A stretch of 64,000 bases of DNA from Enhydrobacter sp. (GTDB lineage: Bacteria; Pseudomonadota; Alphaproteobacteria; Reyranellales; Reyranellaceae), in NCBI GenBank assembly GCA_026126105.1, contig JAHCJV010000002.1, positions 1 to 64,000 on the forward strand, written 5' to 3'. Of this stretch, positions 4,745-29,339 are shown piece by piece; position 1 is the stretch's first letter; each line of letters begins with the position of its first letter. A model generated the notes under the pieces. The model was given only the letters and a program-made list of their open reading frames with translations. It was not told the DNA's origin and did not search any database. Position numbers and translations under genes: made by a program.

Positions 4745-6013
4745 ATGAGCACCACCGAACCCACCGAAGAGAGTGTCCGTGCCGAGGTCAGCGCCTGGCT
4801 GAAGGCCCACTGGAACCCCGACTACGGCCTCGTGGAATGGCGCGAGAAGCTGTGCGAATCGGGTTGGGGCGCGCCGCATTGGCCCAAGGAATGGTACGGC
4901 CGCGACCTGCCGGTGAAGTTCAACGCCATCGTCGACGAGGAGTTCGCCAAGGTTGGCGCGGTCGGCGTTGCCAAGGCCGGTATCCGCACGCTCGCCGCAG
5001 CGACGATCCTGGCGCACGGCACGGATCTCCATAAGCAGAAGTTCCTCAAGCGTATTCTCACCGGCGAGGATACCTGGTGCCAGCTGTTCAGCGAGCCGGG
5101 CAGCGGCTCTGACATGGCGGGCGCTGTCACGCGCGCCGACAAGCGGGGCAACAAGTGGGTGATCAACGGCCAGAAGGTCTGGACCACCTCGGCACACAAG
5201 GCGCATTGGGGCCTGCTGCTCGCGCGCGCGAACTGGGACGTCGCCAAGCACAAGGGGCTGGCCTACTTCGTGCTCGACATGAAGCAGCCCGGCGTGCAGG
5301 TCCATCCGCTGAAGCAGATGAACGGCCACGCGTCGTTCAACCAGGTATTCTTCACCGACGCCGAGGTCGAGCCGGAGATGATGATCTGCGACGTGGGCGA
5401 TGGCTGGACGGTGGCGACCACGACGCTGATGCACGAGCGGCGCGGCGCGGACGGCCTGCGCAGCTGGGCGACACCCTCCGACGCAAAGGGCCGCATCTAC
5501 GACGAGGAGCGGGCCGAGATCGCGACGGTGATGGAGCCCTACAAGTGGTATCCGCAGCGCGCCGGACGCGTCGACCTGGTGATGCAGCGCGCGAAGGAGA
5601 CAGGCAAGATCAACGACCCGGTGATCCGCCAGGAGATCGCCAAGCTCCTGATCATGTCGAAGTCGGCCGAATGGACGGCGCGCCGCGCCCGTGCCGCCCA
5701 GAACCAGGGCAAGCCGCAGGGCCCCGAAGGGTCGCTCGGCAAGCTGGTCGCCAGCCACGTGGCGCGCCAGGCCGCCCGGGTGCACACTTACATCACGGGC
5801 GCCGACGCGCTGCTGAGCGGCGAGGACAGCCCGATGAACGGCGTCATCGCCGAGATCCTGGTCTCGGTCCCGGCCTCCTCGATCGCCGGCGGCACCGACG
5901 AGATCCAGCGCAACATCATATCCGAACGCGTCCTCAAGATGCCGCGCGAGACCAGCGTCGACACCAACAAGCCCTTCAAGGACGTGCCGAGGAATATCGT
6001 GTCTTCGTCGTAG
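4745..6013 (+). CDS. Acyl-CoA dehydrogenase, large-subunit type
   Basis: Second acyl-CoA dehydrogenase of the pair, 422 residues. The FAD/substrate signature LFSEPGSGSDMAG is clear, and near the C-terminus SIAGGTDEIQRNIISERVL is the second family signature. In it the position before Gly-Thr is Gly, not the catalytic Glu of short-chain enzymes. ATG 4745 is preferred over ATG 4739 because GAGGA at 4733-4737 is seven bases upstream of the former and only one base from the latter. It most likely works with the preceding gene in an alpha2beta2 complex (family knowledge plus context). Confidence 0.88.
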   Translation: MSTTEPTEESVRAEVSAWLKAHWNPDYGLVEWREKLCESGWGAPHWPKEWYGRDLPVKFNAIVDEEFAKVGAVGVAKAGIRTLAAATILAHGTDLHKQKFLKRILTGEDTWCQLFSEPGSGSDMAGAVTRADKRGNKWVINGQKVWTTSAHKAHWGLLLARANWDVAKHKGLAYFVLDMKQPGVQVHPLKQMNGHASFNQVFFTDAEVEPEMMICDVGDGWTVATTTLMHERRGADGLRSWATPSDAKGRIYDEERAEIATVMEPYKWYPQRAGRVDLVMQRAKETGKINDPVIRQEIAKLLIMSKSAEWTARRARAAQNQGKPQGPEGSLGKLVASHVARQAARVHTYITGADALLSGEDSPMNGVIAEILVSVPASSIAGGTDEIQRNIISERVLKMPRETSVDTNKPFKDVPRNIVSSS

Positions 6014-6064
6014 GGCAACGACACTCAAGGACCTGCCGCCCAAAGTGCTCATCGCGCGCATTCC

Positions 6065-6154
6065 GTCATCCTGAGCGCAGCGAAGGATCTAGCGCCAATC
6101 CCAAAGGCGCTCTCTGGGGCAATCGTGAGGTCCTTCGCTTCGCTCAGGACGACA
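6065..6154. repeat. Dispersed palindromic intergenic repeat, copy 1
   Basis: An inverted repeat with arms at 6065-6090 (GTCATCCTGAGCGCAGCGAA, continuing GGATCT) and about 6128-6154 (AGGTCCTTCGCTTCGCTCAG, continuing GACGA). The central part starts GCGCCAATC. It lies between the acyl-CoA dehydrogenase stop and the puuD-like gene. Two related elements of almost the same size occur at 22.78 and 26.01 kb. It may form a stem-loop in RNA and act as a transcript-end element. The family name is not known to me. Confidence 0.75.
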
Positions 6155-6219
6155 GCACGAAGGATTCGAAGCCGGTCCCCCTCTTCGCTTCGCTCGCAGC
6201 GGCATGATATCCTTGCCGC

Positions 6220-6933
6220 ATGCCTCGTCCCCTGATCGGAGTCACGCTGGATGCTGAGAAGCCCGGCGGTTACTCGAAGTTTCCCTGGTATGCGCTGCGC
6301 CAGAACTATCTCGACGCGATCGACGCGGCGGGTGGGCTGGCGGTGGCTTTGCCGCACGAGCCCGACCGCGTCGCCGACTATCTCGAGCGGATCGATGCGC
6401 TGGTGGTCACCGGCGGTGCGTTCGACGTCGACCCGTCCTACTACGGCGGCGGAGCCAAGCACGCAACGGTGGTCACCAAGGACCGCCGCACCGCCTTCGA
6501 GTTCGACGTCACCAAAGGCGCTCTCGCTCAGAACAAGCCGGTGCTCGGCATCTGCGGCGGCCAGCAGCTGCTGCATGTCGTGCTGGGCGGCAAGCTGATC
6601 CAGCACATCCCCGACTCGGTAGCCGATGCGCTCGCGCACGAGCAGCCCAACCCGCGCGACGAGCCCGGCCACACGGTGAAGGTCTCACCGGGGACCCTGC
6701 TGCACCGGATCGTGGGCACCGAGGAGCTGTCCGTGAACAGCGCACACCACCAGGCGGCGGCGGACGCGCCCGAGGGCATCGTGATCAACGCGCTCGCCTC
6801 CGACGGCGTGATCGAGGGCATCGAGGCACCGCAATACCGCTTCTGCATCGGCGTGCAATGGCATCCCGAATTCCACATTTCGGAGGGCGACGCGAAGATC
6901 TTCCGCGCCTTCCTCGACGCCGCAAGCCCGTGA
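6220..6933 (+). CDS. Gamma-glutamyl-gamma-aminobutyrate hydrolase family protein (class I glutamine amidotransferase fold, C26)
   Basis: Class I amidotransferase-fold hydrolase related to PuuD, 237 residues. The nucleophile is C112 in LGICGGQQLLHV, and the His/Glu pair lies in GVQWHPEF near the C-terminus. PuuD relatives cleave gamma-glutamyl-GABA in putrescine breakdown, but related proteins act on other gamma-glutamyl compounds, so the substrate is open. It heads a four-gene run in which each stop overlaps the next start by four bases (GTGA or ATGA), pointing to one operon with rRNA-modification genes. That pairing is not an obvious metabolic match. Confidence 0.85.
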   Translation: MPRPLIGVTLDAEKPGGYSKFPWYALRQNYLDAIDAAGGLAVALPHEPDRVADYLERIDALVVTGGAFDVDPSYYGGGAKHATVVTKDRRTAFEFDVTKGALAQNKPVLGICGGQQLLHVVLGGKLIQHIPDSVADALAHEQPNPRDEPGHTVKVSPGTLLHRIVGTEELSVNSAHHQAAADAPEGIVINALASDGVIEGIEAPQYRFCIGVQWHPEFHISEGDAKIFRAFLDAASP

Positions 6934-27693: not shown

Positions 27694-27936
27694 CTAGGAA
27701 GAGCGCGCGCGGCGACGCCGCCTCGCGACGAGCGCCGCACCGAGCGCCGCGAGCGCCAGAGGGCCGGCGCCGAGCAGCGGCAGCGGAGCATCCGAACTCC
27801 CTGAATCTGCGCAGTTATTCAAGAACGACGCCTGACAATTGGCATTCTCATATGCCGTTTCGCTCTGGGCCAGTGCGCCGCCGAAGGCGACAGTCGACAG
27901 AATGAGGCCCGACAGAAGGGCCAACTTGACGTTCAT
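27694..27936 (-). CDS. Short exosortase substrate with a PEP-CTERM/VPLPA-like sorting tail
   Basis: 80 residues. Residues 1-23 are a signal peptide (MNVKLALLSGLILSTVAFGG, ending ALA before Gln24). The mature segment is only about residues 24-49 and holds two cysteines (C34, C42). The C-terminus has the three parts of an exosortase signal: a short motif (APLP, residues 50-53), a hydrophobic stretch (about 54-71) and a basic cluster (five Arg, 72-76). The start is fixed by GGAGAG six bases before ATG 27936; an ATG six codons upstream lacks such a site. It is divergent from an exosortase gene 100 bases away, the natural partner. The role of the tiny product is unknown. Confidence 0.72.
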   Translation of the reverse strand: MNVKLALLSGLILSTVAFGGALAQSETAYENANCQASFLNNCADSGSSDAPLPLLGAGPLALAALGAALVARRRRRARSS

Positions 27937-27993
27937 TTCAGTCTCTCCGTTCAAGGCGCGAACAGCCGCGCCGCGGCCGAAACAGCAGGGCCC

Positions 27994-28015
27994 ATGCCAC
28001 CGTCACGCGTGGCAT
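27994..28015. promoter_or_regulatory. Inverted repeat in the divergent exosortase/substrate intergenic region
   Basis: ATGCCAC and GTGGCAT are perfect 7-base arms separated by eight bases (CGTCACGC). It lies within the only 100 bases separating the substrate gene (minus) from the exosortase gene (plus), ending 21 bases before the exosortase ATG. It may be an operator for coordinated control or a leader hairpin. No known binding site is recognised. Confidence 0.4.
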
Positions 28016-28036
28016 CGCAATTGCTGCTCGCGGCGG

Positions 28037-28861
28037 ATGTTCGGTTCATTGGCGGCGTCCGCCTTCACCCCTCGCACGGCAACGGCCGCGACATCTCTCC
28101 TGCTCACCGGCGGCTGCATCAACGGCTGGATGTTCAGGATCATCGAGGCTTGGAAGGCAGACGGCGTTGCCGCTACCGCCGGGCTATTCGCCATCAGCCC
28201 CTTCGAGTTGATCGTCATGGCGGTGGCGCTGCGCCTGCTGTGGAACGCACAGAGCAATCCCGATGCGACGTCCTTGACCATGCCGGCCTTGGCCTTCGCC
28301 GGCCTGGTATTGTGGCCCAGCAGCCTGGCCGCCTGGGTCGCCATCGTCCTGTTCGGCTTCTGGCTCGCGCTCAAGTACAAGGGTTCAGTCCGCGCAGCGG
28401 CTCTTCTCTTCGCCGGGCTTGGCGCCTGTGCCCTGTGGTCGACCATGGTTGAACCGCTCGTAAGTAACGTCCTGCTGCCGCTCGACGCCTCAGCGGCCGC
28501 CAGTCTGCTCGGCTGGGTCCGAGCCGACGTCATTCGTACCGGCAACATCGTTAGTGTCGACGGACACAGCATCGTCGTTCTCGCTGGCTGCTCTTCGTTT
28601 CATGCCCTGCCGCTGGCGCTGCTTTCCTGGCTTGCGCTACGCCTCGCCTGGGATCGTCCCGTCGATGCCCGCAGCGGATGGATCGCGGTTTCGCTCGCTC
28701 TCGCTCTCGTCGCCGGCAACGTCGTACGCCTTGCCGTGATGGGCTGGTCACCCTCTGCCTATGCCGCGGCGCATGGCGCGATGGGCGGCATGCTGTTCGA
28801 TGGATTGACCACGGTGGCAGTGCTCGCCGCTGCAATCCTGCCGGTGCCGCGCCATGATTAG
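28037..28861 (+). CDS. Exosortase/archaeosortase family membrane transpeptidase
   Basis: 274 residues with multiple membrane segments. The three catalytic residues of the exosortase family are present in order: Cys185 in VVLAGCSSFHAL, Arg231 in AGNVVRLAV and His246 in AAAHGAMGG. Such enzymes cut at C-terminal PEP-CTERM-like signals in the inner membrane and probably attach the protein to another molecule. The frame stays open upstream, but the first sensible start is ATG 28037; earlier codons encode non-membrane, Arg/Cys-rich sequence antisense to the substrate's leader. Size fits single-domain exosortases. Its 3' end overlaps the next gene by eight bases. No polysaccharide synthesis genes are adjacent. 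Confidence 0.85.
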   Translation: MFGSLAASAFTPRTATAATSLLLTGGCINGWMFRIIEAWKADGVAATAGLFAISPFELIVMAVALRLLWNAQSNPDATSLTMPALAFAGLVLWPSSLAAWVAIVLFGFWLALKYKGSVRAAALLFAGLGACALWSTMVEPLVSNVLLPLDASAAASLLGWVRADVIRTGNIVSVDGHSIVVLAGCSSFHALPLALLSWLALRLAWDRPVDARSGWIAVSLALALVAGNVVRLAVMGWSPSAYAAAHGAMGGMLFDGLTTVAVLAAAILPVPRHD

Positions 28862-29339
28862 CCGCACGATCCTGTTCCTCGTGGCGGCGTGGCTTGCAGT
28901 CAGCATTACCGTGAAGCTCGCGCGCTATCTGCCGGAGCGGGAGACCGCCGTAGCCCGCGCGGAGAGGATCGTATCGGCCCTCCTCGCCCAAGAGGGTTGG
29001 CAAGCAGGCGCACGCATTTCTCTCACCAAGGCAGCAGTCTACCAGGCGCACCTGTTCGTGAAGCCGGGTTGCCCGCGCCCCATCGCAATCGTCGTGCTGG
29101 GAAGCTCGGACGAGGCCGAATCCCTGATCTCCCAGCGCCTCGGCTCCAACGTGGCCTACATCGGCGCCGCAGGAGCGAGCGCGCACCAGGACATTCCCGC
29201 CTTCGTCGGCCACGCCCTGATGGCCGGTAGCACGTTTCGCCACGCACTACCGACCATCGCGGTGTCGCCGGCGCCGACGATCGAGCCACAACCCTGTGCC
29301 CCGCCGGTGCAGGCTGCCTGGACCGCGCTAGGGCGCTGA
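28854..29339 (+). CDS. Exosortase-linked membrane-anchored protein
   Basis: 161 residues. An N-terminal hydrophobic segment (residues 3-22, SRTILFLVAAWLAVSITVKL) would anchor it in the inner membrane, followed by a periplasmic domain with HLFVKPGCPRPIAIVVLGSS and a Pro-rich C-terminus containing one further Cys. It starts inside the exosortase gene (eight-base overlap), so co-translation is likely. In other exosortase loci an EpsI-type partner (DUF3485) takes this place; I see no clear DUF3485 motif, so the similarity is positional only. Confidence 0.7.
   Translation: MISRTILFLVAAWLAVSITVKLARYLPERETAVARAERIVSALLAQEGWQAGARISLTKAAVYQAHLFVKPGCPRPIAIVVLGSSDEAESLISQRLGSNVAYIGAAGASAHQDIPAFVGHALMAGSTFRHALPTIAVSPAPTIEPQPCAPPVQAAWTALGR

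Follow-up and report, generated by a model that had tools for sequence, protein, structure and literature searches.

The window analyzed here (64,000 nucleotides; G000:C112:1-64000) belongs to a 6.3-Mb, 221-contig assembly that is ~92% complete with 4.4% contamination. Rereading of the sequence showed that the three genes named in the original prediction are real and have the coordinates claimed for them: intact frames encode an exosortase, a membrane-anchored partner, and a divergently transcribed small protein with a C-terminal sorting tail (Table 1). The partner and exosortase genes overlap by 8 nt, and the partner has an N-terminal membrane helix, in agreement with the predicted membrane anchor; the 100-base spacing of the two opposite-strand genes is likewise as predicted. 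The exosortase length is counted from the ATG at position 28037; a TTG-started frame that begins at position 27839 overlaps the small gene and probably does not mark the real start. The neighbors are ordinary chromosomal genes, including the expected DUF488 and M20 amidohydrolase genes, and no glycosyltransferase is present among the window families listed (25 of the 62 from the second scan), in line with its predicted absence. The M20 hydrolase, which is found near the cassettes of both the window and locus L025, was considered as a fourth part of the module and rejected: the two M20 proteins read as differing types, their genes are oppositely oriented, and no such gene was seen at the other loci.

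Table 1. Features of the exosortase locus (positions in the window)
Feature	Position	Strand	Description
Micro-substrate gene	27694..27936	-	80 aa, signal peptide, tail
C-terminal sorting tail	27703..27801	-	PxPxxGxG motif, hydrophobic helix, Arg cluster; tail profile A5
Divergent intergenic region, 100 bp	27937..28036	.	Separates starts of substrate gene and exosortase gene
Exosortase gene	28037..28861	+	274 aa, Cys185/Arg231/His246
Partner gene	28854..29339	+	161 aa, N-terminal membrane helix, predicted periplasmic domain

The small protein consists of a signal peptide (MNVKLALLSGLILSTVAFGGALA; cleavage site read by eye), a ~27-residue mature part with two Cys residues, and an APLPLLGAG-helix-RRRRR tail, so that a motif, a membrane helix, and a basic cluster follow an N-terminal signal peptide. 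This short open reading frame is more than a chance occurrence: it has a Shine-Dalgarno sequence (GGAGAG) ahead of its ATG, the signal peptide, GC content by codon position that is coding-like (unlike that of the opposite-strand frame), and a tail that a profile still recovers when this sequence is left out of its training set (E value of 2e-4; 60,000 ORFs, leave-one-out). In its own genome, the tail is matched by profile A5 with an E value of 5.6e-10. The PEP-CTERM model TIGR02595 includes the window tail neither in its matches in this genome nor in the NCBIfam matches of the protein. No significant similarity was seen between the mature part and any other, and the CX7C pattern that is common to the small proteins of the window and locus L021 was rejected as a sign of homology, as it fails a composition-preserving shuffle (p 0.13).

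The predicted Cys185, Arg231, and His246 residues are exactly in place in the window enzyme and are invariant in all 12 aligned members of its group; their presence in what a helical structure model (pLDDT 78, pTM 0.79) and hydropathy indicate to be a membrane protein supports the assignment of this protein to the exosortases. Its PF09721 score is 24.9 bits versus a cutoff of 25.7, and TIGR04178 (E value of ≤0.01) matches 5 of 10 group members, the window member not being among them. A search against the known Xrt subfamilies brought it near the cutoff of no named NCBIfam model, the best being cyanoexosortase C (24.4 of 225 bits) and XrtN (17.2 of 200). By these sequence comparisons, the enzyme represents an alphaproteobacterial exosortase group that is not named by any NCBIfam Xrt model. 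A fold search of the structure models of the exosortase and the partner against solved structures revealed nothing similar to either.

Homologs of this exosortase, at ~21 to 40% identity, are scattered among the Alphaproteobacteria. When 385 genomes of the class were searched with a profile, the enzyme was detected in 12 (its own genome included); among 398 genomes of the phylum it was detected in 5, all five of them alphaproteobacterial, and a public scan with a four-sequence exosortase alignment added a Rhodospirillales MAG (L025, the closest relative at ~40% identity) and Acidisphaera (L027). Together with these two, the class and phylum searches yielded 17 distinct loci, the window included; no homolog was found in the plasmids searched. 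The source order is represented by 76 genomes in the collection sampled, and none of the other 74 genomes of the source family has the enzyme. It is on the ground of this absence alone that the module is considered to be probably horizontally acquired; the composition of the cassette lies inside the range of the genome.

A homolog of the window partner adjoins or is fused to the exosortase in 16 of the 17 loci (L027 is the sole exception, and the match in G398 is weak, with an E value of 0.011), and in each of 11 leave-one-out tests the profile scored the true partner above every other ORF of the locus (E values of 2.5e-6 to 7e-23). In L025 (positions 5563-6882), the two proteins form a natural fusion encoded by a single 439-aa ORF. 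The partner, in which Cys73 and Cys148 are conserved, has no match to any Pfam or NCBIfam model, and none of 10 partner members matched as EpsI (DUF3485 / TIGR02914). Still, in the PEP-CTERM system EpsI adjoins or is fused to EpsH (PMC1569441), and in Flavobacterium johnsoniae deletion mutants of xrtF and of the XrtF-associated gene next to it share their phenotypes (PMC10936215). Because of these two precedents, the partner is read as a putative EpsI-type cofactor, a role guessed from its conservation and fusion.

A tail-bearing gene, with a product whose C terminus runs from PxP through a Gly-containing step and a hydrophobic helix to basic residues, lies within about 1 kb of the exosortase in 9 of the 17 loci (the window, L018, L019, L020 with two such genes, L021, L024, L025, L027, and L132), and no linked tail of this type was seen in the other 8. 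The three-gene arrangement is conserved in part, with the partner at 16 and the tail gene at 9 of the 17 loci. Only one relative (L024) has its small gene divergently oriented as in the window. Locus L132 (genome G676) was held out of all model building and was recovered by all three models, with E values of 2e-52 for the exosortase, 1e-17 for the partner, and 6e-9 for the tail, which in this case belongs to an Asn-Gly repeat protein (L132:4268-4576) encoded directly after the other two genes. In L025, the upstream gene is coupled to the gene for the fused enzyme, the stop codon of the former overlapping the start of the latter. Its product is an exosortase-dependent surface protein of the Npun_F0296 family (64.6 bits versus a cutoff of 29), which ties this tail type to a recognized exosortase target family.

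Most of the carriers are tiny, with about 5 (in G350) to 65 residues from the signal peptide to PxP, and their mature parts are often of low complexity, being Asn/Gly- or Pro/Lys-rich; in L024 and L027 the signal peptide of the carrier is not clear. Two very small unlinked tail proteins were observed in G350 (L056, L067), one with ~5 residues between the signal peptide and PxP. Mature parts this small would also suit a regulatory or leader peptide, not a cargo, with its cleavage serving as a readout of exosortase activity or as a control on the partner. This reading is highly unlikely, given that in L025 and G284 similar tails are borne by ordinary proteins of 240 to 320 aa and that no conserved regulatory feature was found nearby.

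Five of the related loci (L016, L017, L021, L023, and L024) are surrounded by what look like polysaccharide genes (GlmS, glycosyltransferase-like, polysaccharide export, Glf), an assignment made by eye with part of the genes scanned. Together with the absence of the enzyme from all family relatives, such neighborhoods could suggest that the window holds the decaying remnant of a former polysaccharide-linked exosortase locus, with three genes left and their function lost. Such decay is hardly credible in view of three intact frames, invariant catalytic residues, a normal coding signature, and similarly compact gene sets in L018, L025, and L132.

The genome-wide tail scan identified one target of this tail type: the whole assembly contains one exosortase and one strong tail, that of the window, and the next profile match (E value of 0.375) is not a tail. 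This count comes from the 150 of 262 first-look candidates that were scored, in an assembly that is 92% complete. As the profile contains linked tails, the informative part of the result is that there are no further strong matches, and as it was built mostly from such tails, unlinked tails of differing sequence could escape it. Four relatives (G278, G169, G181, and G457) likewise have one strong tail each, adjoining the exosortase. In G428, which encodes two exosortases, all three of the strong tails lie beside these enzymes. In contrast, G350 and G398 have unlinked tails and the tail of G284 is located ~9 kb from its exosortase, so that single-target use is not universal.

The PEP-CTERM model detected two proteins elsewhere in the assembly, on contigs C73 (27.1 bits) and C147 (26.5 bits), and none in the 74 family relatives, as would be expected if the two were targets of the sole exosortase found. 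It is conceivable, then, that this is an ordinary PEP-CTERM-like system, in which the enzyme is not dedicated and serves both the linked small protein and unlinked PEP-CTERM proteins (PxP includes PEP). The two contigs make this rather unlikely. The 5.5-kb contig C73 (L092) has a tetranucleotide signature below those of all 67 control segments and carries, besides the PEP-CTERM gene, a transposase-like ORF and a gene for a BipA with extremely high similarity to solved BipA chains from E. coli. Owing to this composition and this BipA, C73 is probably foreign contamination of the assembly, and its PEP-CTERM protein was rejected as a target. The other protein, of the PEPxxWA type and 270 aa long (L094:1-790 and the end of L093), lies on a contig that mostly resembles the host but has an atypical end: in the last 20 kb, where the PEP-CTERM protein is encoded, GC3 averages ~0.91 versus 0.83, and the extreme end has a low signature. 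The C147 protein could be a second target in this genome. Separately, contig C145 (L117; 175 kb, first 20 kb read) has a tetranucleotide correlation with the window of only 0.60 and probably represents either contamination or a replicon of foreign origin, and contig C139 (L047) encodes a 75-aa exported Cys-rich protein with ACKGQ-type repeats that resembles small metal-binding (bufferin-type) peptides.

The proposal that the locus is a dedicated one-enzyme, one-substrate sorting system thus holds in a restricted form. On its side are the single exosortase and single tail of this genome, the four one-to-one relatives, and the all-adjacent tails of G428; the five relatives in polysaccharide loci, the unlinked targets in G350 and G398, and the candidate second target on C147 speak against it. 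Since some relatives lie in polysaccharide loci and some have unlinked targets, the dedicated state is not universal; one enzyme with one substrate is one state of this exosortase family, and this genome has one adjacent tail of this type as well as the candidate PEP-CTERM target on C147.

The evidence as a whole favors, with reasonable though far from complete confidence, a compact, nearly dedicated, and probably horizontally acquired module of an unnamed alphaproteobacterial exosortase group, with one linked substrate, possibly one more, and the partner as an EpsI-like cofactor. In such a module, the small protein would be exported via its signal peptide, and its C-terminal helix and Arg cluster would keep it in the inner membrane. 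The exosortase would recognize PxPxxGxG and cut nearby with Cys185, and the ~27-residue peptide might be passed to an envelope acceptor, probably a lipid or glycolipid; this last step is a guess by analogy with archaeosortase A, whose substrates have a lipid attached at the processed C terminus (PMC7157517). From its conservation and fusion, the partner would be an obligatory cofactor like EpsI, its periplasmic domain positioning the substrate or the acceptor. The module would serve one linked substrate here and possibly one more elsewhere. A bolder reading, which can be offered only tentatively, is that the main job of the enzyme is to process peptide-sized products (a signal peptide, 5 to 65 often low-complexity residues, and a tail), not surface proteins, which would make it a distinct exosortase class. 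Its sorting signal, PxPxxGxG, would then be new, as would its obligatory and fusible partner family.

Several features of the favored module have counterparts in known systems. Similarly to EpsH/XrtA and EpsI, it combines a multi-helix membrane protein carrying invariant catalytic-type residues, a companion gene directly downstream or fused at the C terminus, and targets with a tripartite tail (PMC1569441), but its enzyme reaches no NCBIfam Xrt model, its partner is without a Pfam or NCBIfam match, the tail motif is PxPxxGxG instead of PEP, and the targets are few, tiny, and linked, compared to a median of eight per genome. F. johnsoniae XrtF is also an exosortase variant with an adjacent partner, needed there for the same phenotype (PMC10936215); it comes from another phylum and has no known targets, and the window enzyme and partner match no named model of the XrtF system. 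A single target adjoining its sorting enzyme is typical of rhombosortase/GlyGly-CTERM pairs, as single-target genomes tend to have the two as neighbors, which makes the single-target "dedicated" sorting enzyme with an adjacent target an established idea (PMC3237569); rhombosortase itself is a rhomboid protease, unrelated to the window enzyme. Finally, a member of the Npun_F0296 family (NF050191) is the coupled probable substrate in L025, whereas the window substrate lacks such a domain and its cargo is ~27 residues. No description of the exosortase group, the partner family, the PxPxxGxG tail, or the peptide-sized cargo was found in the databases and the open-access literature searched.

Exosortases are hard to study, as each usually has many scattered targets and the attached or released product is rarely known. 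A three-gene module with a single ~27-residue product comes close to the smallest possible exosortase system, and it is small enough for mass spectrometry of the whole product, identification of the acceptor, and a test of the role of the partner. For annotation, it would provide a new type of sorting signal and a new partner family.
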